Below, in pieces: positions 14,843-40,650 of a DNA stretch of 64,000 nucleotides. A program made the position numbers and the translations under genes. Origin of the DNA: Amphiura filiformis (Eukaryota; Echinodermata; Ophiuroidea; Amphilepidida; Amphiuridae); the NCBI RefSeq assembly GCF_039555335.1, contig NW_027305508.1:434001-498000 (forward strand). The letters are read 5' to 3'. The first letter of the stretch is position 1. Every line of letters begins with the position of its first letter. The notes beneath the pieces are model-generated. The model had not been told where the DNA came from and searched no databases. It saw only the letters and a program-made list of their open reading frames with translations.

Positions 14843-15098
14843 ATGTGACCCCTCGGCACAACTGAGCCCTGAAGTCGCCAATCATCATTTTTGAGATATT
14901 CAACCAAAATATTCTGCTTGAAATTAGCTTTAAAATGATGTATATCATGTCAAAAGTACTTGACATTTAAGTAGTGAAAAATCAATAAAACAGTCAATAA
15001 ATCCTTTGTTTCCTATTGTTTATTGTTAAGTTCGATGGAGCATATCTCAATAGTGGCACTGGCGACATCCAGGCTCAGTTGTGCCGAGGGGTCACATA
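14843..15098. repeat. Small foldback repeat (ATGTGACCCCTCGGCACAAC ends)
   Basis: The left end ATGTGACCCCTCGGCACAAC and the right end GTTGTGCCGAGGGGTCACAT are exact complements over at least 20 bp, continuing into TGAGCC/GGCTCA. The interior does not code. Confidence 0.75.
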
Positions 15099-15123
15099 TC
15101 GGAGTTTGGCGAATAGCAGGACA

Positions 15124-15149
15124 GGACACATCACACACGTGTGATGTGT
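15124..15149. repeat. Perfect short hairpin
   Basis: A 26-base perfect palindrome centred on CACACGTGTG, with arms ending GACACATC and GATGTGTC. It includes an E-box CACGTG. It is probably a remnant of a mobile-element tip; no function is shown. Confidence 0.6.
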
Positions 15150-15692
15150 CCAGACAGGATATAGCCTCATCAACAGCCAATGTGCATCCAATGCAGGAAA
15201 TACGTGATGCGGTGTTAGTCCGAATAATCAGTCCCAGAACAAATTATTTAAAATTACTGACATGATCGTGTTCTGGGTCTGAACTGATACCATATGAAAT
15301 CTTGATGGCAAATTGGACAAAAGAAGCACATGGTTCTACTTGACAGCTTTTTAATCCCTATTTTTTGGTTCACCTCAAGTTTGGTAGTGACATCAATTAT
15401 GCTCTTTCACTGTTGCGCCATAGCGTGCTGACAAACCGCCTTTATGCGCGCGTGTACACTCAGGGTGTTTAACTTTACGCGCACGCGATTCGATACTACT
15501 TCGAAATTTGAAGCCATTTAGAACTAGAAATTTGATAATTAGTGGGTTTTTAGCGGGTTCGCCGTCGGACAAGTTTAGAACTGTCAAGCTTTCGTCAGGA
15601 GTAGCTCTGACTTCTTCAGGACAAAGTACCTAAGATTGAGACATGTAGACCGCCCCTTGTCTACTGATGACTCTAAAAAGAGTCGTTCACTG

Positions 15693-16020
15693 CAAGGTAT
15701 AGAGCAGTTGTGGTGAGCAATACATAGGCCAAACAAAACGACCACTAAAGGTCAGAATATCTGAACACCGAAGAGCCACAAGACAAAAGAAAGAAGAAGG
15801 CTCGGCATTAGCTGAACATGCTTGCAAAGAAGGTCATGAACCTCTGTGGGACAAAACAACAAAACTGGCACAAGTTTCTCACTTGGGGATGAGGTTGACC
15901 CGTGAAGCGTTGGAAATCAGAGTTAATGAAACTTCTACTATCAATAGAAATGACGGCAAAGACATCAGTTGTATGTGGCGCTCTCTATTTTCAAACAACC
16001 AATCACAGAGCCGCTAATCT
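15693..16020 (+). pseudogene. GIY-YIG endonuclease remnant of PLE 2
   Basis: The plus-strand frame reads a cysteine pair, then CGEQYIGQTKRPLKVRISEH, then a basic stretch RRATRQKKEE, AEHACKEGHE and LTREALEIRVNETSTINRND. This matches the YIG-QT-R-L-R--EH core of GIY-YIG domains in Penelope-like elements. At least one in-frame stop (TAG, 15710-15712) precedes the core and the RT part is absent, so the copy is dead. The frame closes within the 60-bp duplication. Confidence 0.7.
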
Positions 16021-16090
16021 TTATCACATCGTATATGGCGTTCTCTATTTTCAAACAACCAATCACAGAGCCGCTAATCTGTACCACGTC
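15971..16090 (+). repeat. 60-bp tandem duplication inside PLE 2
   Basis: Two adjacent 60-bp units share CTCTATTTTCAAACAACCAA and TCACAGAGCCGCTAATCT, differing at only a few bases. The first unit overlaps the end of the GIY-YIG frame. Confidence 0.9.
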
Positions 16091-16204
16091 CGCAATTAAG
16101 TGATATATACGCTCATCGTGCATACAATCAATCAATCGGTCCATGAGTGGCCAAACGGTTCCTGGTAAGCCGTATACTTCTACTACAGTATATGCAGTCT
16201 ACTA

Positions 16205-16720
16205 GTTCTCTGTTGACAAGGGGCAGTCTTCATTGAACAGCTCTTTCTCAGAGCCAACAAACCTTTAATTTAGCAGATAGGCGAGGTCTGCTTGTTTTCT
16301 GTAGACAAGGGGCAGTCTTCAGTGAACGGCTCTTTTCAGAGCCACCAAAACTTACAAAATCAGCAGATAGGCGAGATCTGCTTGTTTCTGTTGACAAGGG
16401 GCAGTCTTCAGCAAACAGCTCTTTTCAGAGCCACCAAAACTTACAAAATCAGCAGATGGGCGAGACCGGCTTGTCTCTGTTGACAAGGGGCAGTCTTCAG
16501 CAAACGGCTCTTTTCAGAGCCACCAAAACTTAAAAATCAGCACATAGATTTAGATCTGCTTGTTTCTGTAGACAAGGGGGCAGTCTTCAGCAAACGGCTC
16601 TTTTCAGAGTTCCACCAAAACCTTTATATTAGCAGATAGGCGAGATCTGCTTGTTCTCTGTTGACAAGGAGCAGTCTTCAGTGAACGACTCTTTTCAGAG
16701 TCATCAGTAGACAAGGGGCA
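16205..16720 (+). repeat. ~89-bp tandem array, each unit with a histone-mRNA-type 3' stem-loop
   Basis: There are about 5.5 units with stem-loops starting at 16239, 16329, 16417, 16506, 16596 and 16687 (spacing 88-91). Each unit runs GACAAGGGGCAGTCTTCAG, stem-loop, ACTTACAAAATC, GCAGAT...ATCTGC. The units at 16329 and 16506 contain GGCTCTTTTCAGAGCCACCA preceded by AAC. That matches the 6-bp stem, 4-base loop and flanks of metazoan replication-dependent histone mRNA ends as I know them. The unit at 16687 changes two bases on each side of the stem and keeps pairing (GACTC...GAGTC). A further copy sits inverted in the left arm at 15669-15684. I do not see the purine-rich CAAGAAAGA element that normally follows. 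Confidence 0.75.
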
Positions 16721-16750
16721 GTCTACATGTCTCAATCTTAGGTACTTTGT

Positions 16751-16790
16751 CCTGAAGAAGTCAGAGCTACTCCTGACAAAAGCTTGACAG
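16751..16790 (+). ncRNA. Possible degenerate hammerhead ribozyme motif in PLE 2 right arm
   Basis: CTGAAGA is followed by one extra A, a stem GTCAG...CTGAC, then ACAAAAGCTTGACAG. The inverted copy in the left arm (15581-15620, minus strand) keeps GAAA at this point. The layout CTGANGA, stem II, GAAA, short palindrome, cleavage site is that of type I hammerheads known from Penelope-like elements. The extra A and weak stem I make activity doubtful. Confidence 0.3.
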
Positions 16791-16834
16791 TTCTAAACTT
16801 GTCCGACGGCGAACCCGCTAAAAACCCACTAATT

Positions 16835-17249
16835 GTTATGAATTCCCGTCGTAAAAGCCTATCCCACAATTTAGAAATTCGATTTTCGAGGTTTCTGTGG
16901 CGCTGTTTCGGCTCCCACCCAAAGGTTCCATTTAAAAGAAGGTCATGTTCTCACCCAATGACCCCATATTTTTTACATTTTGCTATCACCGAATGCCCTT
17001 TACTGCAAAAGTGCCAGCCCTACACCTAGATCCATTTCATATTGAAGCCCCCCCCGGAGTGCCACTGGTCTTGGTATAAAGTATGAATGGTTCTATGAGT
17101 TCTAGCTAGCGCTGACAGAGAAATTACTCAAAAACTCAAAGACCACATTACGGCCTGAAGAAAAGTAACAAATTTAATTTTTGAAGGAACCATGAACTTT
17201 AAGTATTAAAAGTTCCAATTAATAGTGCTTTCTCCATTTTTTCTTTCAG
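16835..17249. other. Sequence between PLE 2 and the first coding exon
   Basis: No coding exon is seen. The segment includes repeat-like text (CTCACCCAATGACCCC) related to the element at 57360-57790. The acceptor CTTTCAG ends at 17249, so the coding exon is preceded by an intron and at least one 5' UTR exon further upstream. Confidence 0.5.
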
Positions 17250-17277
17250 GTACAAGTGTTGACAAGAACATATAGCC

Positions 17278-17346
17278 ATGCCTCGTTCTAACAGGAAAAA
17301 GAAGAGGGCCATAACGTTTGACAATGTCTTGGATGTCAAAGAAGAG
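17278..17346 (+). CDS. REXO5: REXO5-like coding exon 1
   Basis: It encodes residues 1-23, beginning MPRSNRKKKR. The exon starts at 17250 after CTTTCAG, leaving 28 bases of 5' UTR, and ends at donor GTACTT in phase 0. Confidence 0.85.
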
Positions 17347-20300
17347 GTACTTAAAGTTTTAAGATTTGAATTTACCCAATAACTCTTTTTTCTTATCTAA
17401 TACGCCAGTATTATGCAGTCAAGTTAACTCTTATAAAAAGCTCTAGATGCTCGTTCATGATGGTGCAAGTTCAAACCTTCTGCAGTTTCAAATTATGTTC
17501 TCATGAAAAATTGAGCTGACTTGAAATTCCCCTGGACAAGGAACTAATTCCTGCTAATTGAACTCTCTACATTGTACCTGTACAGATATTTATACATACA
17601 TGTATTATGTAGGCTGATTAGGGCTTGAGTTAATCTTGAGTTGGGCATCTTTGAAAGGGTTTATGGATGATTTGGGCCACTGTGATGATCAATTACTTCC
17701 TGTAAAGTGTGCAACCCAGCTCGACCATAGGGTTGGTGGTGCACTATAAATAAAATTTACATAATTATACAATGTATGCAAAGTCCAAAAACAACTCAAG
17801 AAAGACCATTGCCCAGAGGTTGGGTCACATTCAGAATTTCTACACCAAACCATTTGAAATATTACTTACAATAAAATGCACCATAAACCAATGTAGTTGT
17901 GCTGATCACTTGTTTGCACTACATGTATCATATGGTTACTTAATAACAATTTTTGTGATACAATTGCACTCAAAATGGGTGCTTAGTTACACAGAAGTTG
18001 GGAAAGTTTGCAGGGATGCTTAATTAAAGTAGGGGTATTAATTTAATTAGGTTAAAATAGTTTTTTAATTTGAAATAGTGGGCCTACGTAACTGCCTATA
18101 ATTATCGTAATAGGTTTTAGAAGAAGTTCTGCAGAACTTTGTTATATTTGTATGTATTTTAGACTGATTGCACTGTTAGTCTCATACCTGTAAGACACAT
18201 AGAGGTATATCAAGCATTGGGTCATTCGTTGTTATTATTATGTAGAATATAATATGACTACATGTACAACAAGAGGATTTAATGCTTATCAACAAAATTT
18301 ATTTTCTTCATTCAATGTTTCCCAAATTAGGTTTCCTCATTTCTTAAGAGGGCATCAGATGATTGTCCCATACCATCAAAGAGGCAGCGGAATGCAGGTC
18401 CACCGCCAGATTGGATCAAGAATCAAACTGATGAAGAAAGGTTGAAAGCCAAACAAGGCTGCATAACTAGGAAGAAAAGGGTCATGGTAAGCCTGTCACT
18501 TAATACTCTGCATGCTAGCGATAGGCTTCAACATAAAACATTTTGAAATGTTTTCTCAAAATATCAACAGCTATCTTAAGAACCACTGAACAAATACCAG
18601 GCTTGTTTGTACTCCTTTTAATGCATTTTTCATGCTGATTCCAAATATGGTCATGCAAATTTACAATTCTGATGTTGAATTTTAAAAAAATTGAAACTTT
18701 GAGAGTTAAGGCCCCACGCAACTAATACATTACCCTATATGTTGCTGTGTAAAATGGCAGCCATTCAGAAGCAATTTTCTCAGCTATAAAATGACTGGTT
18801 GCCTCAAATATACATACATACCAAGATGCAAGATCAAAATAAAAGATAAACAAAAGTGTATGATGAAGGCTAAGATTTTGAGTTACAACCTGTCAAATGG
18901 GATCAATATTTTGCTAAATCGCCCCGACTTCGTTTGTACGCTTGCAGCATAACCATGTTTAAGCACTAACACCGCTACCAAGCTTGATGTGAAAAGAAGT
19001 TGACAATAAAATCATTCCTGTTTTAATATCATTTTATTTCCATTATCCATTTTAAGGAATATCCCAAATTGTTTTTGGAAAACGCTTATAAGAAGAAGAA
19101 TAATGAGAAAAAGAGTGCGAAACCACTGAGTGTTGAAGATGTGCAGTCACTAGCTGTGCATGGATTGGCAGGACAGCATGATACAACACCAAGGTAAGAC
19201 TGGCAGTATTTAAGGTGGTTTTAATAGGAAATGATAGTTGTGTAGGGGTTTGAACTTGCTACTTCTTGATTTTAGTCCAAGGTGATACTGATGATGTGGT
19301 GGTGTTTTTTTTGTATTCTTTGATGTATGATGTATGATTGTACATCAACACTATACCAAATCTAATATGGAAGTACACCACGCACAAAAAGAAACTTGTC
19401 AGTTAAAGGGGGGTAACCCTATTGGTTTTGGATATGGATTGTCTTTAAAATTACATAATAATATCAAATATCTCCCCCTTTATGCTGCTTTGTGAAAAAA
19501 CGAGAGCATTTTCAGCGTAAATGTGAATAAATAGCCAAATTTGCAATCCAATACCTTGTATACGTGAATTGCATTCTGGGTAGGCATGCAACAACAACAA
19601 TTCCCGTCAGATGATTTAATGCTGACATGCTGCAATGCCCGGCCCGTATTGAACGGAAAATATTTGTTTTTTTGGTTTTTTTTTTTTTTTCGTACCGTTT
19701 CAGAAAAAAAGGAAACAAAATATATTTCCCCTTGCGATATGTACATTTCAAATGAATATAAAAAGTTTGGGTTAAAAATGGAGATGAAAAACCTTCCGAT
19801 ACCGGTTTTGAACCGGTACCTCATGGGTAAAAGAACGGCGCGCTAGCCAATTGAGCTATTTCACCAACTGAAATAATCAAGGAATTGTTTTAATTATATA
19901 CGGCGGACCGTCTCCTCAGCACATAGAAAAAATCGCTTTTTCTCTTCCCATGATCCGAAGTAATTTTTATTGTTTACAAACTGGTAACCTGTAAAAACCG
20001 CTGTGATTCATGATTTCTCCGGAAATACATCGACTTGGAGCGTCAAATTTCAGGATAGTAATGAGAAAAATAGTATCTATGATGTGATACCAAAACCTCA
20101 TCAACAATGAAAAAAATCGGGGGGATGATGCTGTCGATCGGGTTACGGACCTTTAAATTCATCCTTGCTGTTCAATAACTTGATAATTTTGGATTATTCT
20201 GAAATATACATTTTATTAATTGGTCTTTTCTTTCTCATTTGACACCCTGTTCATGAAAAACGAACAAGAATTGACCAAGATATGCGCCTCCAAAGCATCA

Positions 20301-23300: not shown

Positions 23301-26300
23301 GCAGGAGACTATGTAATCACTTTTCTGTATGTCAGGCTATCTGTCCATATGTATGTGTGTATGTGACAAATTTGGTTAAAAGTTTTGATTAAATGTACAG
23401 TTCAAATCATATTGCAAGCATTATTATGTTTTGATGGATCCAAGTGTGTGAAAATATTGGATCCAACACATAATAATGATAAAATTGGATGCTTTACGCC
23501 CAATATTTATTGGTCTCGCTATGAGTTATAAAATATTGGACTCGACTACGTCTCATCCAATATTTTAAAACTCATAGCTCGACCAATAAATATGAGCTCA
23601 ATCCAATTTTATTTCAAACTTGAGCCATAGGTGAAGTAAACTGTTCTTTATGTTATGGTGATGTGTCATATAATTTCAAGGTTACCATAGATCATCTGAG
23701 GTCAAATTTGTTCTTGAAATTTGGATAAAGTTGCTCTCGGCTTATGCATTTCACCATGCTTTGATGTACCAAGCTGCAATTTTGAACGGTGATAGGCGCA
23801 AGTGCGTCGAGTTGCTAGGGCAGTCACACCTGTAGGACAGGTCACCTGATAGATCTGTACATGTATATGATTAGCATAAATTGTTTTGTTTTTATTTCGA
23901 CAGGTGTTGAACAACACGAAACAGAAAAGAATGGCAATAGTAAAAATGCAGCTGAAGTATCCAAACAAGTTGATACCAACTCCTTAATTGGAAACACTAA
24001 TAATGATCATCTAAATCATAAACTTGATGGGCCTGATAATGACCATGTTAATAATAATCTTGTTGGAAGAACTTGCTATTTATTAGCGGATCATGAACTC
24101 CTCAGACGGAAATTTCCAAAGGCAAATGAGAGGGGTATCCAGTCCACAAATCATAGCGCAGAAGTGAACAATTCCAGTCCTATGATTGGCGTAGATTGTG
24201 AAATGGTAAGATATTTATTAAATGAAGGAATCGGTAGATTATAGATAGTCTTTAATGATCTTAAGTGTCTCATGTAAAAAAGGTTTTTTTAAGTTACTAT
24301 ATATTTAATTTTTAGTTTTTTTAAGTTTTTTATTTTTATTTTTTTTTTTTTTTTTTTTTTTTTTATTTTTTTTTATTTTTATTTTTTTTTTAATGTTAGG
24401 TTTTTTTAATTTTTTTTTTAAATTTTAATTTTTTAATTTTTTTTAATTTTAGTTTTTTTTTAATTTGTTAGTTTTTTCTATTTTTTAGTTACTATAATTA
24501 AATTTTTTTTTAAAGTTACTATATTTAATTCTCGGATAAAACTGTATGTGCCGAGTGTTGTGTCAAATGCGTGTGCATACTTTGCAGAAGCTCTGACCTT
24601 AGCGACTGGCTGCTTGGTAACAACATGACGTAGCATGATTGTTTCTTTTTCTTCAAGAGAAATTTGAATTTCGTTCTGGTATACCAGAACGAAATTACAA
24701 CGCATTGTCTATGGAGCAGTATAATACACATAATCATGCATAACTCGCAAACGCAAAATTGGACTCAACTGAAATTTTGGGAATGGGGTTTTTTTTGTGG
24801 ATATCTACCGAAAAATGTCATAAAAAGAGGATGCTAGGATCACGAAATACTCCTTTAACCAATTTCATATTGTAAGATAGTACATTATGGCTCATTGAAT
24901 GCTAAACACCTGTTATCTCATGTCTTTATATATGCAGTGTACAACAGCCAGAGGTAGTGAGCTGACAAGAGTGTCATTGGTTGATGAAGATGGAAAAACA
25001 TTATACAATAGCCTAGTGAAACCAGACTCGCCCATCGTGGACTATGTTACAAAGTATGGCAGTGCTCCCATATTATATTATGGTGGGATCAAGCAAAATT
25101 AGTCTGAAGTCTGACATATTCAATTTTTTGTAAGATTATAAACAGGATTTGCAAAGCTACATTTTGCAGAAAACCCCAATGAATTTGATAACCAGTTCAA
25201 AATATGTGAGCAGTTATATCTCAAAATCAATTTTTCCGACTTCCAACTGATTTTGTTTGATCACATCACATATCGTGATAATAAAATTGATTAAACTTAA
25301 AGGAGGATGGTCTGCTTAACAAACTCGTCCTCTCTTAATCTCCATCTAATTTGAGATTTGGGTGCATTTTCAGCCATTTAGTTTTGACTCAGGGTGGATT
25401 TTCAGCCATTTTGTTTTATTGATGGCCCTCAATTTCATGAATTTGGTTTAAGAAAGGGTGTATTTTCTCAAAAAAGTGCCAATTATTCATTGTTTTTGAG
25501 CAAAATTTGCCAAAAAAATTGGTTTGATTTTTAGGTTTTTTTTGGTCTGTTTTTTGTCAAATTTAGTTTAAAGTCAGGTAGTTTTCAGAGTTTCAGCCAC
25601 ACATTCCCACCCAAACCAAAGTTGACACCCTATCCCCTGATGTGCTCTGTTCATTGAGATACTTTTGTCACTATCAACCCATGTTGCACTAGATAGCAAA
25701 TCAGTAGAGAAAATTGAAATAGAAGAAATGCATTGTGGGAAGTGTAAGATATCTGCTCTAATACTTGACACTATTTGTTTATTTTGATAACAGGTACAGT
25801 GGTATAACCAAAGAGATGTTAGATCCAGTCACAACAAGATTAAAAGATGTACAGAAAGACATCATAGCTTTACTGCCAGAAGAAGCTATATTAGTGGGTC
25901 AATCCATGGAAAATGACCTCATAGCACTCAAGGTATGTCAGATCTAGACCAGATATCCCCTTAAAATAAATTAAAGTGCTGGAGAAATAAAAGGAGTAGC
26001 TACAATCTAGGACAAATGTGTTTTTGAAGTGTTTTTGAAGCTTCAAATAGCAGCGTTTGCATTCACATGCTGCGACTGCTAGTATGTTATTTTGAAAGTT
26101 CTACAAAAGAGCTCTACAGGAGAATACTTTATACTATTTAAGAATCAAGTTAATTTCTTATCGACTACTGCATACTGAAAATTTAGCCTAAACACCAGTG
26201 AAAATTAAAACTGTGACTACGCAAACAATCATATACAGTTTGTAGGTGACCTTGGTATGCTTGCTCACACCATTCACCAGCTACGAAGAGAAGAAAGAAA

Positions 26301-29300
26301 ATTATAGCTGCATGTATGTTTTGTCAATTGAAATATAAGCCCCCTCTTAAGGTAAACTTTTAAAGGTTCTCTTAATATTCAGTTATAAAATTGTTGTTGC
26401 TTTCAGCTTTATCATCCTCATATCATCGACACAAGTAGGATGTTCACCAAAGGCCCGGTAGCTCTTAGGAAACTTGCAAAGTTTTATTTAAAGTGAGTAC
26501 ATTTGCTTATTTATATGTTCTGAAAATTGTGGTTTTGCTTGGGCATATTGTGGTTCTGCTTGGGCATATTGTAGTTGAAGGGCATATTGTGGTTGAAGGG
26601 CATATTGTGGTTGAAGACCATTGGGTTATTCCATTTGAAATCCATACACCCCCTATGGAAGACATAACCTTAATCTTCCACACAGGGAGTGTGAATATCA
26701 AATGGGGTAAACTGAATGGGTGACTCCATTTGAAATCTACATCCCCTGTGTGGGATATTAATAAGGTCTTCCATATGACATGTATGGATTTCAAGTTATC
26801 TAGCCTATTGTGTACTGGTATTGTTCAAGAGATGTTTTGCAGATACAACATGCATGCATACTTTTGTAAATTGATAAAAAAGAGGAATGATATAGACGAA
26901 TCCAAATACACGCATTCCTACACCTGACTAGCAGCCTTTAGTTGGGTCCCCGTCGGCTACAATACATCCAAAATGTGAAATGATTCGGCCTTGGCGGAAA
27001 TTTTAAACTGCATTCCATCACCTGTTTTACACCTTCCGCGAAAACACAGGTAGACAAAAGAATGCACACACAATACAGTTCTAACAGTTGTGCAAATAAA
27101 AGCCGCCTTACACCTAGAGAAGGTCGAGGAGGGTTAATAGAATAATACAATAGAGATAATTCCGCAGGTAACCCCGTCGCATCTATTCATAGATGTACAA
27201 GTGGATGAACAAAAGGACTATGTATGAATAGATGCAACAGGATTACCTCTAATGTATATATTATTCTATTAACCCTCTTTGCATCTTCTCTAGGTGTTAG
27301 GCGGCATTTATTTGCACAATCGGGCGCTCAAAACCCCAGGTTGGTGCTAGCGGGAAACCAAAGATGGCCAACCAAATCCTGACCATGACTTGGCTCGTTG
27401 GATTCGTCTATAGGAGATTCAATCCATAGAAATTAGACTAGGATATTGCAAACTCTTCCCATGTTATATCAATCATGGAAGGGAAAATAAGCGAGGGAGC
27501 AGGACAATGTCACTACTGCCAAACGCTGGTAAAACTTGGTCAGGTGCCATTGAAAATAAGCTGCTTATTTGTAAACAACTTGCGCGTATAAGGATTGCAC
27601 ACAGCGCACTGGATTGCGCTTCATATCAATGCAAAACATCAGTGGGCATATACCTCTATATTAATTGATCACCATGACAAGGTTTAGCTAACATTGAATA
27701 CTTGTGTAATTCATTGGGCTGAATAACTAAGCACAAGATTTGTAAATCTTTACTTCAACGCAACAATTCAATGTTAGCACTTGCCAAAAATGGCACGAGG
27801 TACACTATTTGGGGGCCAATATGAAAATGCAGTATGGCAGATTGCCCATGGCATGAGGTCGATTGAGTCCACACTCTACATATTTTGATCAGTACCAAAT
27901 AGGCGAGAACAGTTGATTAATTGATTTCTGGAAGCTGGGGTGAAAGAAGATAAAATTTAGGAGAAAATGCACAATACAGAATGTTTTATCACATTTGCAT
28001 GCAACCCAGGAATACATCACATGTGTTGTTTGTTGACTTCTGGACCCAGTATTAACTAAGTGACATCACAGAAAAATGGTCTCTACATGGATGTACATGC
28101 TACATGTCTGTATACATATACATGTACTTACCTACTGTATTACTAAAATGTAAATTTTATATTATTTTCCTTTTCTTCAGTCGTGTCATACAGGACAGCT
28201 CCTCAGGTCACGACTCAGTGGAAGATGCACTTGCCGCGCTGGATCTCGCTAAACTCAAAATTGCAAAAGGCAATAACTTGAGACCATTCATGAGTGTCAG
28301 GGGTAATGAGAAGAACTTTCCAGTAGAAAGGTGAGTCAGGGTAATAAGTAACTATAGTATTTTTACTCTCAGCAAGTCGGTGACATCAGTGTGCATTTCA
28401 TGCGCTGTTTTCAAATTGCGCTGGCATACATGAGCTGTGCTCGTCATTAGCGCCAATTTGGCTTGAAATGTGGGGGACAATCGGCCTGAATTGTCAAAAA
28501 GTGGCTGAAAAGAACAAACAAGGCGGTTCTCGAACCACGAGTCTCGCCTGCTTTTGTGACCGCCTGCTTTTGCGATAACTGTTGGTAGAGAGGTAAATGA
28601 ATTTGGCAGTTATCGGCTGGGCACGATTATCTGGCTGATGGTAACTGTACTGTACCCACCAAGTTTCATGCCCATGCAACAGTTTTTACTAATATGACCT
28701 CAGATGACCCCTGGTGGCCCTGAAATGACCTAAAATTTTGGCTCTAAATGTTGACTGTACCCCTCGTGCTAAGTTTCATGCCCATACGACAGTTTTACTA
28801 ATTTGACCTCAGATGACCCTGGTGGCCTCGAAATGACCTTCCAAAAATTTGGCTTTAAATGTTGACTGTACCCATCAAGTTTCATGCCCATACGACAGTT
28901 TTTACTAATTTGACCTCAGTTGACCCCTGGTGACTCCGAAATTACCTTCCAAATATTTGGTTTTAAATGTTGACTGTACCCATCAAGTTTCATGCCCATA
29001 CGACAGTTTTTAATAACTTGACCTCAGATGACCCCTGAGTGACCTCGGATGACCCCATAATGACCTTCCAAAAATTTGGCAAAACCAAAGAACTATTTCA
29101 TCAAAGTAATAAATCAAAACAGAAAGATGTTTCCTTTACGAGTTATCACTCATTGAAAGTGCTACTTTGCTATACTTTACATGCAAAGCGACTATCTTAA
29201 AGTCGTCATATTTCATTAATTACATGACCGATCAAGCTGTTATTTGGATATGTGATGCACAGTTGAAAATTAATTATTAAAAGATTTTGTGACCTCCTTT

Positions 29301-32300
29301 GACCTTGTATGTGACCTTTGACCTCACAAAATTGGATAAAGTATGTTGCGCTGAAAAATCAAATTTGGCAATACCAAAGAACTATTTCATCAAATAAATC
29401 AAAACAGGAAGATGCTTCCTTTACGAGTTATCACTCATTGAAAGTGCTACTTTGCTATACTTTACATGGAAAGCGACTATCTTAAAGTCGTCATATTTCC
29501 TTAATTACATGACCGATCAAGCTGTTATTTGGATATGTGATGCACAGTTGAAAATTAATTATTAAAAGATTTGGTGACCTCAGTTGACCTTTGACCTTGT
29601 ATGTGACCTTTGACCTTTGAATTCGATAAAGTATGTTGCACTGAAAATCTAATCAGGTCAAGTACCTCTGGCCACGCAACTCCCCACCAAGTTACGTCAC
29701 TGTACCCCATACAGATCTCCAGATAATCTGTTCACAAGGTATTTTGCTTATTACGCATATATTATGCAAATTAGGTACGGTACTTAATTACCATATTTTA
29801 CGCTCAAAATCTAATCAGGTCGAGAACCTCTGGCCCCACTACTCCTCACCAAGTTACGTCACTGTACCCCATACGGATCTCCATATAAGCTGTTCACAAG
29901 GGTTTTTTGCTTGATACGCATCAAATACGCATAAATTATGCAAATTAGGTACTTAATTACCATATTTTGCGCTGAAAATCGAATCGGGTTGAGATCCTCT
30001 GGTCATACTACCCCTACCACTTTATGTTGACCGTACCCACCAAGTTTCGTGCCCATACGACAGTTTTTAGTCATTTGACCTCAGATGACCCCTGGATGAC
30101 CTCGGGTGACCTTGACGCACTAACCAATACAAACTTGTTCTGTCTGGGGTGAAGATGCACCCACCCACCAAGTTTGAAGAACGTGCGACCCCAAGTCTCC
30201 GAGAAAATGGGTTTTTGCATTTTATGCATAAATTATGCAAATTAGGTACTTAATTACCATATTTTGCGCTGAAAATCGAATCGGGTTGAGATCCTCTGGT
30301 CATACTACCCCCTACCACGTTTCATCATAGGGCTTAGGATCTTACGGATCCCCCAGATACAGCTCCATAAGATGATTTCTTCAGATTTCCAACCATATTT
30401 GTAGAATCGTTCCGCATAAATTATGCAAATTAACAACTAAATGCGCATACTTTTCGCCGAAAAACTAATCAGGTGATCAGCAGGTGTGTATCATTCCTGT
30501 CACCAGGTTTAGTTACCATGCGCCCGACGGATCTTGAGATAGTCTGTCCACAAACTCTGCTATCAATTTGCTCTGATTTTCGCATAAATTATGCAAATTA
30601 GCTATGTTAATTTGCATATTTTTCACCGAAAACATACGGTTATGGAGCAAACTTGGATACCCTTCCTCCCACCAAGTAGCGTCGCCGTAGGTCTTACGGT
30701 TCCCCAGATACAGCTCCGGACGGACATACATCCACACACACATCCACCCCCACACCCCCACCCCCCCACACCCACACCCCCACATACGCACGGACAGACA
30801 GAAATAGTGACTACTAAGTCCCATCCTGAACAAAGTTCAGGCGAGACAAAAATGGGTCATTTTGTCGAAAGGTGGGGGGGCACGTCCCCTCTGTCCCCCA
30901 GCGTACAGACCCAGGCGTTTAAAGAATCTACTTAGGTATACATTATGTGAAACCGCTGCATGTGCATGTTGATGTATCTGATTAGCTGATTAGAGTAAAA
31001 GTACTATACACAGTACCATGGAGGATTAAGGAACATTGCATAGACATATGTACACAGTTGTAAATGTTGTAACCTTCACATATTTGATGCCTTATATGGG
31101 ACCCAATCAATTTGCTCGTTAGATGAAACACACATGGTAAAGAGAAACACATGGCAAAGAGAAATTTGAATTGGATTCTCTGACAAACAGAGCCAGTAGA
31201 GGTATTTAAGTATTAGAGTTATGTGATCGTATTTCTATGTTTTAGTTGAGTAACCTACAGCAGCATTTTAGAAGCGTTTCAGGTTATTAAGTTGGTGGTC
31301 TGTGATACCGTTCAGTAGCGAAATGCCAATGTCAAGACGAATGACATATATCGGTAATCGCAGATTGAGATGGGGTGCTTCGCAGCATAACATGCAATAA
31401 AACAGAGGGGAAACTCTCACATATAAGTAGACAGATAAAGAAAATAAAATATGTTAAGAAAGCCGAGAGAACTTGGGAGAGGGAAGGAAGGAATGTGGCT
31501 GTAAAGAAATGGCATGAAACAGAAAATGTCAGGTTCCCTTCTTATTCTTTTTTCTATAAACATGCTTACCTTAAATTGAGGATTACACACAGGTTTTATG
31601 TGCACAGTGAATACTATATGCACAATTCTGGAACATAGGATTTGAGCGTTGTGCTGATAACACAAGCCCAACAGCTTAAATTGACTTCTGAACCATGTGG
31701 GGCTACATGCTTGCTTCAATCAATATGGTTCTGAAGGACACACGGGGAGAGGCTTCTGAAAATCTGAATTATGTCTCAATTTAATCAATAAACATAATAT
31801 ACTTTGATTTTTCACCTTGAAATTCCTGAGCAATTTTTGTGGAAGTTTGCCACAGTGTGAGCTCGAACCCACAAACCTTGTTTTGACACTTATCTTCTTT
31901 GACAGAGCAGTGAAAGAGTACAGCGCCACCTTACCACATATTAGTGGTATGTATCTTCTTACTATAATTCACCAGATCTGTCCATCTGTCCATCTGTTTG
32001 TTTGTCTGTCCGCCTCTTTTCTTGGAGACCGGGGGTCGCGCGTTCCTCAAACTTGGTGGGTGGGTGCAGCTTGGTATGAGGAAGAACGAGTTTATATTTT
32101 TAAGGTCAAAGGTCAAGGCCGGGGTCAAGTTCAATTGAAGTCTAATTTCAAACACTTTAAATGGCAAATCTAGCCATGCCAATGTGTTGACCTTGGACTC
32201 TCAAACAAAAGTTTCCACGGTGACCTTTTCATCAGGGGGTCAAGTTCAATTGAAGTCTAATTTCAAACACTTTAAATGGCAAATCTAGCCATGCCAATGT

Positions 32301-35300
32301 GTTGACCTTGGACTCTCAAACAAAAGTTTCCACGGTGACCTTTTCATCAGACCTACGGTTAAGAAGTCAAAGGTCAAGTAAGGTAAAATTTCAAATTGCC
32401 CTATAGAGCTCAAACATGGTGGGTGGGTGGACCTTGGACAAACAAAGAAAAGTTACCATGGTGACCTTTTCGTCAGAACTACTGTTAAGAGGTCATAGGT
32501 CAAAAAAGGTAACAATTTCAAATTGCCCCTATGAGGCTCAAACTTGGTGGGTGGGTGGACCTTGCACTAACAAATAAAAGTTTCCATGGTGACCTTTTCA
32601 TCAGACCTACGGTTAAGAGGTCATAGGTCAAGAAAGGTAAAAACTTCAAATTGCCCCTATAGAGCTCAAACTTGGTGGGTGGGTGGACCTTGGACTAACA
32701 AACAACAGTTTCCACGGTGACCTTTTGTCAGACCCACGGTGAAGAGGTCATAGGTCAGAAAGAGCGAAAGTCAGGTCAAATTGCAAAAAGCTGCAATTGA
32801 CCTCATCTGTGAGGACAGTGATCCCAGCCAAAGGACACACCCTGATTTTGAATTCTGCAAAAGCCAATAACCATGACAGCCGAGAACCGCGAAATACGGG
32901 TAACCGCCTAGTACAGAGAATTAGAGAAAGAGAACCGGGACTCCCTATACCGGCACATACAATGGTGCCGTCAGCTATAGGGAGAAAATTGGGGGTGTTC
33001 GGGTCCTTGCCGACGGTGCGCGAAGACGAACAAAAACAACTCTGCGTCTCATCTGAAGCGTCTTGGTACTCACATGCAGGTCGCATCAACAGTGTCTCTC
33101 AAATGCACCCATCATCCATGTCGCGCTTACATGACAACGAATGCCTCGATCGCATTCCGAGGGATACCGAATACCCCCAATTTTTGCTCCATGCCTTTAT
33201 CAAGATGGAATTGAGTCCCGGTTGTCCTTCTCTAATTCTGTGGTGGTATATCATGATTATGGAATAATATAATTCATTGCTATCCATTATACACTGTATG
33301 GTTATACATTCAATGTGTTTTTGTGTGAAATTATGTGATATGTTTAGAGAAATGGTGAATAAAGAAGTCAAAATATCAATTGAATTTGTTTGTACGTTTT
33401 TATCATTTCAGCATTTTCTTGAAGAGTGGGTCAGACAGTGTGTCCATGATGGTGGATTCTGAGTCTGTGTTAAGGCGGATGTACAAAGAACCAGTTGGAT
33501 GCATATCTACCAGTAATGACACAGAAGTAAGTACTACAATAAATGACAAATATAAAAACTAGTTAGCTATGGTCCGTATGCTTTCCTCAAGGCAGTAATT
33601 TATATATTGTTTTTTACTGTATTTCTGAACATAATGATAATAGGTATATAAAAGTATACATTTTCAGAAAGGAAATGACGCAGGGAGTCAAATTAAAATA
33701 AAAAGAATGAGATATTTTGTCACAAGAATGATGGGCGTAGTGGTATGGCAAAGCACTCGACGGGAGTGTTGTTTCTGGATGCCGGACCACAATGCAATTC
33801 ATGCTTACCAACGTATTGGCTTGCTAATTGTGCTAATTATTCACTTTTACGCTGAAAATGTTCTCGTTTTCTCACATAGATTCATAAAGGGGACAATATT
33901 TGAAATTGAATGTAAGTTTGAAGACAATCCATATCCTAAACTGATAGGGTTACCCCCCTTTAAACCAGTTTTGAGTGGTATTTGATAGCATTATCCCATT
34001 GTTCTTATTTCAGACTCAGAAGAAAGCTGTGAAGGCAATTGAATCCAGCAAGTTTTTGTGGGCGCAGTTTCATTCCTACCGAATATACCTCGATGGAACA
34101 ACCAAAGATGAAGATGAACAAAAGGTAGGGTCATAAGAGAGGTTAGACTTAAAGAATCTCTGAATTGCCCCTGTGTAATGCTATGATAAATCTGCCATAT
34201 TGGATTATCATGCATGGACACCAAAATTATGTAACTCCTGCATCTGTGGCAAAAGCCTGATGTTGAACTAAGCGTTGATTACCGTCCCAACGCATTGCGC
34301 ACAAACAAGCATGCAATACAAATCAAAGTTTAATGGGAGCTTGTTGAAATTATGTGGAGGTACACTATTTGCGCAACATGCAGACATCTTGTTGGGATGT
34401 CTGTATGTCTAATGTCTACACAATGTTTCAGTCAGGAATTGGATGTAAATTTTCAGACATATTTGAAACAAAATTTGTTCATACATACGCGCTATATAAC
34501 AGCATGCATGATTTAGAGAATAAGCGATAGGAATTTTATTTTGCCTATCCTCTACCGTGTGATAGGCGACAGGCAGGTCCAATATTTTGAGTAGTGGATG
34601 CCGGCAGCCGGTATCCACTACGATAAAAATATTGGACCTGCCTGTCGCCTATCATAGGTAGAGGATAGGCAAAAATAAAAATTCCTATCGCTTATTCTCA
34701 TTCTTAGTCAGTTAAATATTATTTTAATAACTGTAAACAATTTTTTAAAGCAAAAACTAAGTTACCGTCATAAAAACTCCCCTCATTATAAAATGAACGA
34801 AACTTGTTTACAACTTCACGTATTCTGTTTCACAGACTGCTAGCGCGTCGCGTATTCCGCACTAGTCTCACGCATTACAGCGCAATACATACGCCGCACC
34901 TCTACAAGCGTGTAAGGCATTATCAAGACGCTTGATGACGTGGGGTCGCTCTCACGGCCTGATAAACGGCACCGAAATCTTGCGATTGTCCAATCACAAA
35001 TGTGTCTACGAACTAAACCACTCCCACTGACTAAGAATGGTCGATAGGCGTTGTTTATGTCCGGCTTTCCAGTCGTAAACAAGCCGGGCTAGAACCGATG
35101 GACGCTCGAGAGTACGATATATGCGCCTATGCTCACGAGCTGGTTAAGCAAAGCGCGAGTGATGTACGCGATGTTCGCACACAACCAAACAATGGGCAGA
35201 GCAAGTAAACGTTTTCTCACAATTAGCGATGGAAACCTTTTAAAAGGATTAGGAACTGGTAGTTTTATACTAAAATGATGGTATTTTAAGATGTGGAGAA

Positions 35301-35797
35301 AAATCACAGCACACAGAATGTAGCATATGTATATAGGGGTTCATTCATATATTTTCATGACTAAACGATACCCGAGAGCATAAACAACGTTTAGTCATGA
35401 AAATATATGAATGAACCCCTAAATAATGTTCAGTAGTATCAGTTTTCAAATCTGCACTGTTCATTAAAATACATGAAATAGTAGGTTACTTGTAATTAGC
35501 CAGTAGCATACAATCAGAAATAGGCAACTTTTGTTTGTCTTATAAAAATGCAAGATTGGTAGGCAGGGTGAGAAAAATCCATGGAGTCAACTCAGCTAAT
35601 TGTCACATGGTTTAATTTTTCAGATGCTACTCACAAAACTTGATGGGAGAGTGAAGAAGATCTACAAAGCGCTTCCAGAAAAAAGCTTAGTGCTAACAAT
35701 AATGCTTGAAAACACAAGAGGAGATGATGGATGTGCTCATAAGGGTCGTGTGTTTGCTGGTATCAAAATGTCTCCAGTCACTGATGATTCGTCATAA
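17278..35797 (+). CDS. REXO5: REXO5-like DEDDh RNA exonuclease, 13 coding exons, 591 residues
   Basis: The product is a predicted 3'-5' RNA exonuclease of the REXO/NEF-sp family, which trims small and ribosomal RNA precursors in the nucleus or nucleolus. I joined 13 GT-AG exons; every phase fits and the total is 1,776 bases including the stop. The N-terminus is basic (RKKKR, residues 6-10), as for a nuclear signal. VVVLILHGVS (134-143) precedes the catalytic domain, as is usual in NEF-sp proteins. Exo I is IGVDCEM (289-295; D292, E294), Exo II is GQSMENDLIALK (369-380; D375), and Exo III is GHDSVEDALAALDLAKLK (H419, D424). All DEDDh residues are present, so it should be active. Vertebrate REXO5 is longer (about 770 residues) with two RNA-recognition motifs; I see no clear RRM here. 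The start ATG is the first in its exon, just after a UTR acceptor. Confidence 0.92.
18331..18486 (+). CDS. REXO5: REXO5-like coding exon 2
   Basis: It encodes residues 24-75, basic and proline-rich, including KRQRNAGPPPDWIK. The acceptor is CAAATTAG and the donor GTAAGC, phase 0 at both ends. Confidence 0.85.
19057..19193 (+). CDS. REXO5: REXO5-like coding exon 3
   Basis: It encodes residues 76 to about 120, with a lysine-rich run KKKNNEKK. The acceptor is CATTTTAAG and the donor GTAAGA; it ends in phase 2. Confidence 0.85.
19404..19865 (-). mobile_element. tRNA-derived SINE in intron 3
   Basis: On the minus strand, 19865-19795 begins GGTGAAATAGCTCAATTGGC (A-box-like) and contains a T-arm ACCGG-TTCAAAA-CCGGT (B box). 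Its acceptor and anticodon arms do not pair, so it is tRNA-derived rather than a tRNA gene. The body ends at AGGGTTACCCCCCTTT (complement at 19404-19420). A headless copy lies at 33756-33964 on the plus strand. Confidence 0.65.
20158..20604. repeat. Palindromic MITE-like element in intron 3
   Basis: The ends ATTCATCCTTGCTGTTCAA and TTGAACAGCAAGGATGAAT are inverted. The arms continue with complementary TTTCTTTCTCATTTGACACC, TTGACCAAGATATGCGCC and CAAAACCCCAAAAT-type blocks. Confidence 0.8.
21528..21654 (+). CDS. REXO5: REXO5-like coding exon 4
   Basis: It encodes residues 121-163, including VVVLILHGVS. The acceptor is TACAACAG and the donor GTAAGT; it ends in phase 0. Confidence 0.9.
22549..22642 (+). 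CDS. REXO5: REXO5-like coding exon 5
   Basis: It encodes residues 164 to about 194 (FVEELLYRPMSSRTYKNSKY). The acceptor is TGTTCTAG and the donor GTAAGT; it ends in phase 1. Confidence 0.88.
22673..23159. repeat. Palindromic MITE-like element in intron 5
   Basis: The arms begin GGGTCCACAACTT and end AAGTTGTGGACCG, sharing TTTTACACATGTG and CATTGCGTTCAGTCACAA-like blocks. A related fragment lies at 41846-42050. Confidence 0.75.
23480..23611. repeat. Inverted repeat in intron 5
   Basis: The arms TAAAATTGGATGCTTTACGC and the complementary right arm ending ATCCAATTTTA meet near 23545. They share CAATATTTATTGGTC / GACCAATAAATATGAG. Confidence 0.75.
23904..24205 (+). CDS. REXO5: REXO5-like coding exon 6 (Exo I motif)
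   Basis: This is the largest internal exon. An Asn/Asp-rich linker leads into LADHELLRRKFPKA and ends exactly at IGVDCEM with D292 and E294. The acceptor is TTTCGACAG and the donor GTAAGA, phase 0. Confidence 0.92.
24270..24530. repeat. T-rich low-complexity tract in intron 6
   Basis: About 260 bases of nearly pure T with scattered A, between exons 6 and 7. Confidence 0.9.
24660..24856. repeat. Partial copy of foldback element B
   Basis: It contains the palindromic core CGTTCTGGTATACCAGAACG and the end GGATGCTAGGATCACGAAAT, matching 4025-4873 and 48212-48525. Confidence 0.75.
24938..25053 (+). CDS. REXO5: REXO5-like coding exon 7
   Basis: It encodes the beta strands after Exo I (ELTRVSLVDEDGKTLYNSLV, KPDSPIVDYVTK). 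The acceptor is ATATGCAG and the donor GTATGG; it ends in phase 2. Confidence 0.92.
25083..25285. repeat. Palindromic repeat, copy 1 (GATCAAGCAAAAT family)
   Basis: The ends GGGATCAAGCAAAATTAGTC and GATTTTGTTTGATCACATCACA are inverted. Copy 2, with an internal difference, is at 36825-37072. Confidence 0.65.
25794..25932 (+). CDS. REXO5: REXO5-like coding exon 8 (Exo II motif)
   Basis: It begins YSGITKEML, the conserved segment after Exo I, and ends at GQSMENDLIALK with catalytic D375. The acceptor is GATAACAG and the donor GTATGT, phase 0. Confidence 0.93.
26407..26492 (+). CDS. REXO5: REXO5-like coding exon 9
   Basis: It encodes LYHPHIIDTSRMF...LRKLAKFYL, the conserved HPxxIDTS region between Exo II and III. 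The acceptor is CTTTCAG and the donor GTGAGT; it ends in phase 2. Confidence 0.92.
26530..26613 (+). repeat. Minisatellite in intron 9
   Basis: Four imperfect ~18-24-bp units, GGGCATATTGTGGTT(GAA or CTGCTT), directly after exon 9 and abutting a family-M MITE. Confidence 0.85.
26622..26808. repeat. Family-M MITE, copy 1
   Basis: Near-palindromic ~190-bp element with terminal inverted repeats of the type GGGCTATTCCAGTTGAAATC and a GGAAGACATGACCTTAATC sub-terminal block. Other copies: 39624-40650 (split), 43323-43795 (split), 46324-46565, 48529-48665 (half), 48977-49155, 50545-50736, 51165-51305 and 54228-54402. Confidence 0.85.
26891..27412. mobile_element. Foldback element E, intact copy 2
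   Basis: Ends in inverted TATAGACGAATCCA / TTGGATTCGTCTATA. The halves are complementary, with AAATAAAAGCCGCCTTACAC and AGGTGTTAGGCGGCATTT near the centre. It shows the uninterrupted form of the element at 11536-12909. Confidence 0.85.
28181..28330 (+). CDS. REXO5: REXO5-like coding exon 10 (Exo III motif)
   Basis: It encodes GHDSVEDALAALDLAKLK with H419 and D424, completing the DEDDh site. The acceptor is TTCTTCAG and the donor GTGAGT; it ends in phase 2. Confidence 0.93.
28640..30930. repeat. Intron 10 repeat tract rich in TGACCT hexamers
   Basis: It is built of repeated blocks: AAGTTTCATGCCCATACGAC recurs at about 28660, 28780, 28880, 28986 and (as GTTTCGTGCCC) 30040, and AATTATGCAAATTAGGTACT recurs at about 29745, 29935, 30230 and 30590. 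Two ~250-bp units (29080-29345 and 29345-29645) are near-identical direct repeats. Perfect DR1 pairs TGACCTTTGACCT occur at 29312, 29585 and 29604. Confidence 0.8.
30735..30795 (+). repeat. CA/C-rich simple repeat
   Basis: CACA and CACCCCC microsatellite-like sequence at the end of the intron 10 repeat tract. Confidence 0.9.
32100..32765 (+). repeat. ~115-130-bp tandem repeat array with AGGTCA direct repeats
   Basis: Five or more units. The first two (32120-32235 and 32236-32350) are nearly identical; later units carry GTTTCCACGGTGACCTTTTC and CAAACTTGGTGGGTGGGTGG. AGGTCANAGGTCA pairs occur at 32103, 32490, 32618 and 32745, with an imperfect one at 32364. Confidence 0.85.
32915..33244. repeat. 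GC-richer foldback repeat in intron 10
   Basis: The ends ACAGAGAATTAGAGAAAGAG and the right end CTTCTCTAATTCTGTGG are inverted and continue through CCGGGACTC / GAGTCCCGG. The centre shares GGGGGTGTTCGG / CCGAATACCCCC. The overlapping 156-codon plus frame lies in this repeat and is not treated as a gene. Confidence 0.75.
33412..33526 (+). CDS. REXO5: REXO5-like coding exon 11
   Basis: It encodes residues 459-497 (IFLKSGSDSVSMMVDSESVL onward), after the catalytic domain. It is preceded by the longest intron, 5.1 kb, filled with repeats. The acceptor is ATTTCAG and the donor GTAAGT. Confidence 0.82.
33756..33964 (+). repeat. Headless copy of the intronic SINE
   Basis: Matches the body of 19404-19865 in opposite orientation (ATGCAATTCA, TTTACGCTGAAAATG, CTCGTTTTCTCAC and the end GGGTTACCCCCCTTT). 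The tRNA-like head is missing or degenerate. Confidence 0.65.
34014..34124 (+). CDS. REXO5: REXO5-like coding exon 12
   Basis: It encodes residues 498-534 (KAVKAIESSKFLWAQFHSYR onward), 37 whole codons. The acceptor is TTATTTCAG and the donor GTAGGG, phase 0. Confidence 0.82.
34511..34706. repeat. Near-perfect ~195-bp palindrome in intron 12
   Basis: Arms of about 95 bp (GAATAAGCGATAGGAATTTT ... GTCCAATATTTT and the complement) meet at GCCGGCAGCCGG near 34605. Only a few mismatches are visible, which suggests a young foldback element. Confidence 0.85.
34840..35215. other. CpG-rich intronic island
   Basis: CpG density is high against an AT-rich background (GCGTCGCGTATTCCGC, GACGCTTGATGACGTGG). 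No exon is needed here by the splice phases. It could be an internal promoter or a transposon end. Confidence 0.35.
35334..35422. repeat. Short palindrome in intron 12
   Basis: GGGGTTCATTCATATATTTT and its complement, about 37-bp arms continuing CATGACTAAACG, around a ~20-base loop. Confidence 0.85.
35624..35797 (+). CDS. REXO5: REXO5-like terminal coding exon 13
   Basis: It encodes residues 535-591 (LLTKLDGRVKKIYKALPEKS, LVLTIMLENTRGDDG, FAGIKMSPVTDDSS) and a TAA stop. The acceptor is TTTTTCAG. Its last ~127 bases are the first unit of a four-unit tandem array that continues to 36281. Confidence 0.82.
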   Translation: MLLTKLDGRVKKIYKALPEKSLVLTIMLENTRGDDGCAHKGRVFAGIKMSPVTDDSS

Positions 35798-36281
35798 TGT
35801 CACCCTTAGGCCAAGCACTTCCAGAGAAAAGCTTAGTGTTAACGATAATGCTTGAAAACACAAGAGGAGATGATGGATGTGCTCATAAGGGTCGTGTGTT
35901 TGCTGGTATCAAAATGTCTCCAGTCACTGATGATTCGTCATAATGTCACCCATAGGCCAAACGCTTCCAGAGAAAAGCTTAGTGATAACAGTAATGCTTG
36001 AAAACACAAGAGGAGATGACGGATGTGCTCATACGGGACGTGTGTTTGCTGGCATAAGGGTCGTGTGTTTGCTGGTATCAAAATGTCTCCAGTCACTGAT
36101 GACTCATCATGATGTCACCCATAGGCCAAGCACTTCCAGAGAAAAGCTTAGTGATAACAATATAAATGCTTGAAAACACAAGAGGAGATGACGGATGTGC
36201 TCATAAGGGTCGTGTGTTTGCTGGCATCAAAATGTCTCCAGTCACTGATGACTCGTCATGATGTCACCCTTAGGCCAAGGA
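35671..36281 (+). repeat. Four-unit tandem array of the REXO5-like terminal exon end
   Basis: The shared CTTCCAG recurs with TTCC at 35673, 35819, 35965 and 36134 (146, 146 and 169 bases apart). Each unit encodes the C-terminal segment (PEKSLV, MLENTRGDDG, FAGI(K/R)) and stops at the same place: TAA in units 1-2, TGA in units 3-4. It is followed by TGTCACCCWTAGGCCAA. The third unit has an extra ~26-base internal duplication. Only unit 1 is joined to the gene; units 2-4 lack an in-phase acceptor. Confidence 0.9.
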
Positions 36282-39362: not shown

Positions 39363-39982
39363 CGAACGCTGATTGTGAGACTACCATTTATTATCTTCAT
39401 CAAGTAGTTAATTCTAATTGCAACAAATATAAACAGCTCTAAAAGTCCCACACTGAGAGTGGCTCCCCTGGAACTGAGTCTGGCAGCAGGGTCAGTTTAA
39501 ATGGTTATACCAGTTATAAAAGATTCCCCGTATAATATTTGGAGTGTTGGGGGGATGTCAAAGAGCACTGGACCTTGACCATTGTCCAAAGTAGCTAATA
39601 AGGCAAGTTATTGTGTGGAGCCAATGGTCTATTCCAGTTGAAATTCATATACCCTATGAAAGACACAGGGGGTGAAGATTTCAGATTTGCTCATTTAAGT
39701 AACCCCATTTAAAATTCACACTCCCTCTGTGGAAGATTGAGGTATTTTAATACCTCAATCTTCCACAGAAGGGTTTTAAAAATGTCTCCATAAGGTATTA
39801 TTACTAGAGTTCTCATAACAAATCCAGGTACTCACAATTAGTAGTGACGTTTCGCAACCTTACTGGCTGGTTGCTTCTTCTTGACTGAGCTGTATCCAGT
39901 ACTAGCACTTGCTGTCTTAGCTGTAGTGTTGCCAGTTGATTTGTCTTGGATAAGCTGATTGTATGCATGACTGAGAAAATAA

Positions 39983-40417
39983 GCAGAGAAAGTTCAGCGG
40001 ATTCTTAAGAAACACAGTGTCTCTGCAGCAGTGAAGCCACACACCACACTGAAGAACATGTTAGTTCACCCTAAAGATAAAAGGGACATAAGTGAAACAT
40101 CAGGGTGTGTGTATGAAATTCCTTGTCGCAACTGCACCCACACTTATGTTGGGGAAACAGGAAGACAGTTTGGAACAAGAATGAAAGAACATCAGAAAGA
40201 ATCGGATAAAATCAGTCAAAGGACATGTACCAGAGCTGCTCGGTTATCATCGGTTTCAGAACAACACAAGTCTGCCATTTCAGATCACGTCGCAGAGCAC
40301 AACCACATCATAGACTGGGAGGGGGCCAACATTCTACATCGAGAAAGTGATAAGTTCCCAAGATGGATAAGAGTCAATCTGGATCAGGAGGCGCAACGAG
40401 CAAGCTATGAACAATGA
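39983..40417 (+). CDS. GIY-YIG endonuclease domain of PLE 1 (C-terminal fragment)
   Basis: The frame is open from 39983, just after a TAA, to TGA at 40415-40417. It starts AEKVQRILKKHSVS, then LKNMLVHPKDK, the linker usually found between RT and endonuclease in Penelope-like elements. CVYEIPCRNCTHTYVGETGR follows with FGTRMKEHQKE, giving the CxxC pair, the YVG of GIY-YIG and the R...EH residues. SAISDHVAEHNHIIDWEGA matches the conserved A(I/L)-(D/E)H--E--H-I-W block. The domain appears intact and the cysteine pair is present, but without RT and a start codon it is a truncated copy. Confidence 0.85.
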   Translation, partial: AEKVQRILKKHSVSAAVKPHTTLKNMLVHPKDKRDISETSGCVYEIPCRNCTHTYVGETGRQFGTRMKEHQKESDKISQRTCTRAARLSSVSEQHKSAISDHVAEHNHIIDWEGANILHRESDKFPRWIRVNLDQEAQRASYEQ

Positions 40418-40527
40418 GGGGGGGCGCAGCTTATTTTCTCAGTCATGCATACAATCAGCTTATCCAAGAAAAATCAACTGGCAACACTACAGCTAAGACA
40501 GCAAGTGCTAGTACTGGATACAGCTCA

Positions 40528-40568
40528 GTCAAGAAGCAACCAGCCAGTAAGGTTGCGAAACGTCACTA
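40528..40568 (+). ncRNA. Possible degenerate hammerhead motif in PLE 1 right arm
   Basis: TCAAGAA, a stem GCAACC...GGTTGC, then GAAACGTC and ACTACT. The GAAACGTC part is the canonical hammerhead GAAA, ACGU palindrome and cleavage C. The catalytic CTGANGA box is changed, so it is probably inactive. The inverted copy is in the left arm (about 39842-39885). Confidence 0.35.
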
Positions 40569-40650
40569 CTAATTGTGAGTACCTGGATTTGTTATGAGAA
40601 CTCTAGTAATGTTTCCATAAGGGTTGTATGGATTTCAACTGGAATAGCCC

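Follow-up and report, generated by a model that had tools for sequence, protein, structure and literature searches.

A tandem array of hairpins resembling the 3′ stem-loop of replication-dependent histone messages lies within a decayed retroelement in the window (the whole 64-kb stretch of DNA analysed), and suggests that elements of this kind may make use of the histone message machinery. By its sequence features, the element is Penelope-like and truncated at its 5′ end. We tentatively read the hairpins, at a little under an even chance, as binding sites for the stem-loop-binding protein (SLBP) on the element RNA, either now or in an active parent, with RNA ends that would form independently of U7; active relatives of this copy may carry the array as well. 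A retroelement with a tandem hairpin beside a self-cleaving ribozyme would offer a test case for the use of SLBP outside histone genes, and would also bear on the role of minimal hammerheads in Penelope-like elements. We know of no Penelope-like element with a histone-type hairpin array. A histone-type 3′ stem-loop in any retroelement was not found described among the titles and abstract openings searched, a body of text that leaves most subscription journals uncovered, and the word "histone" is absent from the accessible portions of PMC11167929 and PMC7229834.

The array has a period of 89 bp, with 5.5 copies and 87% matches according to Tandem Repeats Finder, and all six of its hairpins lie on the same strand as the truncated GIY-YIG-like frame (Table 1). 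The stem-loop is present in seven copies: units 1 to 6 on the plus strand, the last of these inside the right inverted arm, and a seventh copy on the minus strand in the left inverted arm. The two arms are 156 nt long and 98% complementary, with one hairpin copy in each, and inverted arms are common in Penelope-like elements. The original prediction had placed about six tandem copies of an ~89-bp unit at this site, with one hairpin copy per inverted arm, in a Penelope-like setting. Copy number, unit length and coordinates agree with our analysis, as do the arm copies, and the setting is borne out by the truncated GIY-YIG-like frame, the inverted arms and the hammerhead core within them.

Like the replication-dependent histone 3′ stem-loop (RF00032), the hairpin has a 6-bp GGCTCT/AGAGCC stem, a TTTC loop, and AAC and ACCA flanks. 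Unlike the histone hairpins of RF00032, those of the array are arranged in tandem, reside in a retroelement, do not follow a histone gene and lack the consensus U7-pairing element. Each full unit also holds a second possible hairpin, GCAGAT-loop-ATCTGC (16273–16291 in unit 1), which by eye is intact in units 2 and 5, contains one G-U pair in unit 1, and is mispaired in units 3 and 4.

Table 1. Features of the Penelope-like element and its stem-loop array, in window coordinates.
Feature	Position	Strand	Details
Left inverted arm, reverse-complement copy of pseudo-LTR end	15537..15692	-	One stem-loop, complete hammerhead core
Left-arm stem-loop	15684 down to 15669	-	Perfect 6-bp stem scan
3′ frame remnant, C-terminal GIY-YIG-like endonuclease fragment	15703..16017	+	104-aa open frame
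60-bp repeat, two copies	15971..16090	+	92% identical; NF-Y-type CCAAT box in each (15997, 16057)
TATA-box-like hexamer	16104..16109	+	Pattern match, downstream of CCAAT boxes
89-bp tandem array	16209..16700	+	One histone-type stem-loop per unit; units aligned
Unit 1 stem-loop	16239..16255	+	A.C closing pair, 1 extra loop base; without Rfam match
Unit 2 stem-loop, perfect	16328..16343	+	Histone3 34.8 bits (match 16323-16368)
Unit 3 stem-loop, A.C closing pair	16417..16432	+	Histone3 28.1 bits, under gathering
Unit 4 stem-loop, perfect	16506..16521	+	Histone3 37.3 bits (match 16501-16545)
Unit 5 stem-loop, 2 bases inserted on 3′ side	16596..16613	+	Histone3 20.3 bits, under gathering
Right inverted arm, pseudo-LTR end	16679..16834	+	Inverted-repeat comparison
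Unit 6 stem-loop, second pair G-C to A-U	16687..16702	+	Histone3 17.9 bits, under gathering
Minimal type I hammerhead-like stretch	16747..16790	+	Stem I 5 bp, stem II 5 bp, 2-nt stem III remnant

The Rfam covariance model Histone3 (RF00032; gathering score 34 bits) scores two of the seven copies above gathering (37.3 and 34.8 bits) and three below it, while unit 1 and the left-arm copy are unlisted at E ≤ 10. The best match covers all 46 model positions, flanks included, with an E-value of 2.7e-07 when all Rfam families are searched over the 64 kb. These values support the assignment as a histone-type stem-loop put forward in the original prediction, and its first refuting condition, a covariance score no better than that of shuffled sequence, is not borne out. 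A permissive scan of the whole window returned 26 matches over all families at E ≤ 10, and all five to Histone3 fall in this array. Because the copies are duplicates of each other, we weigh them as one hairpin with the single E-value of the best match.

The 19-mer GGCTCTTTTCAGAGCCACC, comprising the stem, the loop and the ACC flank, occurs at 16328 and 16506. It is absent from viral_contigs, and in genome_contigs it is found in two stretches, both taken as chance matches since they are located within long bacterial open frames. The search of genome_contigs, which used this 19-mer alone, gave no second copy of the element in a collection with few or no animal genomes. A pattern scan for a perfect 6-bp stem with a TYTH loop returned nine sites in the window. 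The element accounts for four: three on the plus strand (16328, 16506, 16687) and one on the minus strand (15684). A signature looser than the 19-mer (RG stem start, TYTH loop, six pairs and AM after the stem) matches twice in the window, both times in the array; 100 shuffles average 0.31 matches and never exceed 2. Since shuffles reach two matches, the hairpin shape alone is unremarkable, and it is the sequence together with the flanks that makes the case: the covariance E-value and the rarity of the 19-mer render a chance hairpin unlikely. Membership in another RNA family was also considered and rejected, as only Histone3 matches in 15000–17500 at E ≤ 1, and no other family matches inside the element at E ≤ 10.

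Across the seven copies, 95.2% of the 42 stem cells are paired, and four of the six stem pairs are invariant. Units 1 and 3 no longer form the closing pair. Unit 5 retains all six, two of them as G-U in the predicted fold, or alternatively with a 2-base bulge by pair count. One pair is changed on both sides, from G-C to A-U, in unit 6 and in the left-arm copy. The paired change that the original prediction had reported at 16687 is real, but it counts as a single event, because the two copies that share it belong to the opposite arms of the same inverted repeat; the alignment of copies that it had proposed as a check for compensatory changes yields this one event across all seven. Of 500 shuffles, 17 reach the observed values of three pairing measures, including the covariation score, and 266 reach the observed count of two-sided pairs. 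One two-sided pair also appears when the partners are shifted by +3 columns, with a covariation score of 0.127 vs. 0.159 for the true pairing. In the histone stem-loop, a G-C at the second pair is important for SLBP binding; if this requirement holds here, the arm copies, in which the stem is kept and this G-C is lost, would bind SLBP poorly.

It is quite possible, if on balance improbable, that the hairpin has no role at all, and that a histone 3′ end captured once, or a chance hairpin, was carried along as the 89-bp unit was amplified by unequal crossing-over. One origin followed by duplication would account for all copies, several of which are damaged, and the consensus U7 site is missing. 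The hairpin is also not clearly better conserved than the remainder of the unit, so that its conservation provides no proof of constraint: in units 1–5 (unit 6 and the left-arm copy being dropped as partial), the change rate is 4/80 in the hairpin vs. 39/360 in the rest of the unit (Fisher p = 0.14). Comparison with the 3′ part alone (32/240) gives p = 0.04, as one of two tests and uncorrected. However, outright chance is unlikely for a match of 37.3 bits that spans both flanks (E = 2.7e-07), and the four inner pairs are intact in 7/7 copies.

An unlikely explanation is that the array serves the element in some other role as a structured repeat of RNA or DNA, such as binding of its own reverse transcriptase, packaging or an enhancer-like function beside the promoter, to which the histone likeness is secondary. 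The predicted fold of the array RNA is more stable than expected from shuffled sequence (z = –2.49, equalled by 1 of 100 shuffles), and forms three of the six hairpins (units 2, 4 and 6) at minimum energy. Placement of the array after the CCAAT and TATA boxes and the second possible hairpin in each full unit point the same way. However, by eye units 3 and 4 carry mispaired versions of this additional hairpin, and a different role would leave the close match to the histone model, flanks included, without a reason.

The remainder of the element is consistent with a Penelope-like pseudo-LTR attached to the end of a coding frame. No reverse transcriptase is present in this truncated copy, and the C-terminal endonuclease-like part alone is left. 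The 104-aa frame matches Pfam PF01541 below threshold (E = 0.034, 14.9 bits, cut-off 22.6), its assignment as GIY-YIG-like being otherwise made by eye. The frame end is followed in order by two CCAAT-bearing 60-bp repeats, a TATA hexamer at 16104, the array and the hammerhead. The CCAAT boxes at 15997 and 16057 are two of seven matches to the consensus in the window, counting both strands, and the TATA hexamer is weak alone, because the plus strand of the window has 91 such hexamers. In the element of PMC11167929, the hammerhead is located where the pseudo-LTR meets the reading frame, and the pseudo-LTR itself likely contains a promoter. The order of CCAAT boxes, TATA box, array and hammerhead fits this layout, and would constitute a set of pseudo-LTR features running in the sense of the endonuclease frame.

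No histone coding sequence was found upstream of the stem-loops, the sole frame of at least 100 aa in the element being the GIY-YIG-like remnant. Capture of a whole histone gene was considered and set aside: CCAAT, TATA and ATG follow one another in a suggestive order at 15997–16145, but by eye the short frame downstream of this ATG has no histone likeness. Inspection of the element's flanks by eye showed no convincing target-site duplication. Three exact patterns gave no relative in viral_contigs, an absence that is weak in a collection with few or no animal genomes; a protein search of the same collection returned 18 stretches by pattern, 0 of which were confirmed as relatives. A blastn search with 15400–16900 gave no match among phages and plasmids, where animal genomes are likewise scarce or absent.

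Minimal type I hammerheads within the pseudo-LTRs of Penelope-like elements were reportedly described by Cervera and de la Pena in 2014. The accessible parts of later sources place minimal hammerheads in the pseudo-LTRs of such elements (PMC7761336, PMC11167929), and those of PMC7761336 describe them as type I hammerheads without helix III, whose role is called still a mystery. Like these elements, the element here has a GIY-YIG-like frame end, inverted partial copies and a core near the pseudo-LTR end; unlike them, it has an array of histone-type hairpins.

A scan for a full hammerhead core with a stem II of at least 4 pairs and a stem I of at least 3 found one site in the 64 kb, on the minus strand in the left arm. 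This core is complete (15619 on the minus strand), with a predicted cut after 15586. A stricter scan (stem II of 5 pairs, stem I of at least 4), with limits set after the match had been seen, gave one site in the window and 0 in 300 shuffles. In the right arm, one core position is changed; the predicted cut lies between 16785 and 16786, 83 nt beyond the last hairpin, and the motif is in sense with the reading frame. At the motif level, the pseudo-LTR thus contains a Penelope-type minimal hammerhead, with a complete core on the left and one change on the right. At E ≤ 10, the Rfam hammerhead models report neither copy of the motif. Folding of the left-arm stretch predicts a structure other than a hammerhead, with a stability equalled by 109 of 200 shuffles (z = 0.22), and the predicted fold of the right arm together with unit 6 (16660–16834) is without a hammerhead (z = –1.14).

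According to PMC7026596, processing of histone messages involves pairing between an element downstream of the hairpin and the 5′ end of U7. The original prediction had noted that the U7-pairing CAAGAAAGA is not seen, and indeed this form, AAGAAAGA, AAAGAG and AAGAGC are all absent from the plus strand of 16200–16900; the host U7 may differ. Given the lack of consensus U7 sites, the histone U7 complex would probably not cut the 3′ end here.

Our proposal is that the element captured, or converged on, a histone 3′ end that was then multiplied by tandem duplication, and that the stem-loops are putative binding sites for host SLBP on the element RNA. The 3′ end may arise from cleavage by the hammerhead, whose predicted cut lies 83 nt past the last hairpin, or from read-through, and the transcript could then be trimmed back toward an SLBP-covered hairpin. 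Among the routes that would give a histone-like end, we prefer a cut after 16785 followed by trimming to the SLBP-covered hairpin. Alternatively, SLBP may merely stabilise the RNA and aid its translation, without defining the end. If the element were arranged in tandem like that of PMC11167929, the array would be found in the transcript leader and again in the tail, at the point where transcription runs into the next pseudo-LTR.

A partial precedent is provided by the histone 3′ ends of C. elegans, for which PMC1924863 does not exclude trimming back to the hairpin. As described there, these messages also end in a hairpin, and the search for the U7 RNA of this animal was at that time still under way. 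They differ in coming from genuine histone genes, which have an AATAAA signal as well as a candidate downstream element that is conserved.

In its full form, the proposal posits a Penelope-like family with histone-type, poly(A)-free ends made without U7, in which the hammerhead frees the 3′ end and SLBP bound to the stem-loops of the array provides for protection, export and translation of the RNA. We regard this as very doubtful. If true, the SLBP-hammerhead route would tie the element to replicating cells and early embryos. The original prediction had likewise raised SLBP-dependent processing or stability, S-phase expression and an end without poly(A), all of which are hypothetical for this element. 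Two results for a lizard element, reported in the accessible part of PMC11167929, count against the hammerhead step: hammerhead cleavage was unnecessary for insertion in vitro, and public reads neither start nor stop at the predicted hammerhead cut.

It is highly improbable that the array instead serves the hammerhead, with the GACAAGG at each unit head acting as an alternative stem I substrate strand, each unit as a potential self-cleavage target, and one RNA end arising 7 nt after the unit 6 hairpin: GACAAGG, present at seven sites at 16215–16710 and preceded by UA or UU, can form seven pairs with the stem I strand CUUUGUC, but an equally long complement occurs in 182 of 5000 shuffles of unit 2, stem III would not form by eye, and the two strands are not paired with each other in the predicted fold of 16660–16834. 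Separately, derivation of the stem-loop from the antisense of a decayed hammerhead (CTGATGA on the minus strand of the left arm) was rejected, since by eye no GAAA follows the stem and since the core scan placed the hammerhead elsewhere in the arm.

A second 5′-truncated Penelope-like remnant is present at 39788–40622, with a GIY-YIG frame at 39983–40417 (Pfam E = 8.9e-05) and inverted arms at 39788–39984 and 40429–40622 that are 95–99% complementary. It shows no DNA likeness to the array element, no tandem array and no Histone3 match. As a member of another family, it is weak evidence against a general role of the hairpin.

Downstream of the array element, exon-like stretches were read by eye on the plus strand at 17278–17346 (MPRSNRKKKRAITFDNVLDVKEE) and 23819–24244 (...MIGVDCEMV...). 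The latter presumably resembles an RNA exonuclease of the REXO/ISG20-like kind, and Pfam assigned it to no family. If the two stretches belong to one gene, the element lies directly upstream of its first coding exon, in sense. Matches to microRNA models, all under gathering, occur at 94–242 and 59353–59497 (MIR7504 and MIR1319, with MIR7504 matching both strands at 100–236), and probably represent an inverted-repeat transposon present in several copies. Other tandem arrays, their units 108–146 bp long, are found at 28649–29044, 32121–32761 and 35667–36052, one of which holds two identical 115-bp copies.
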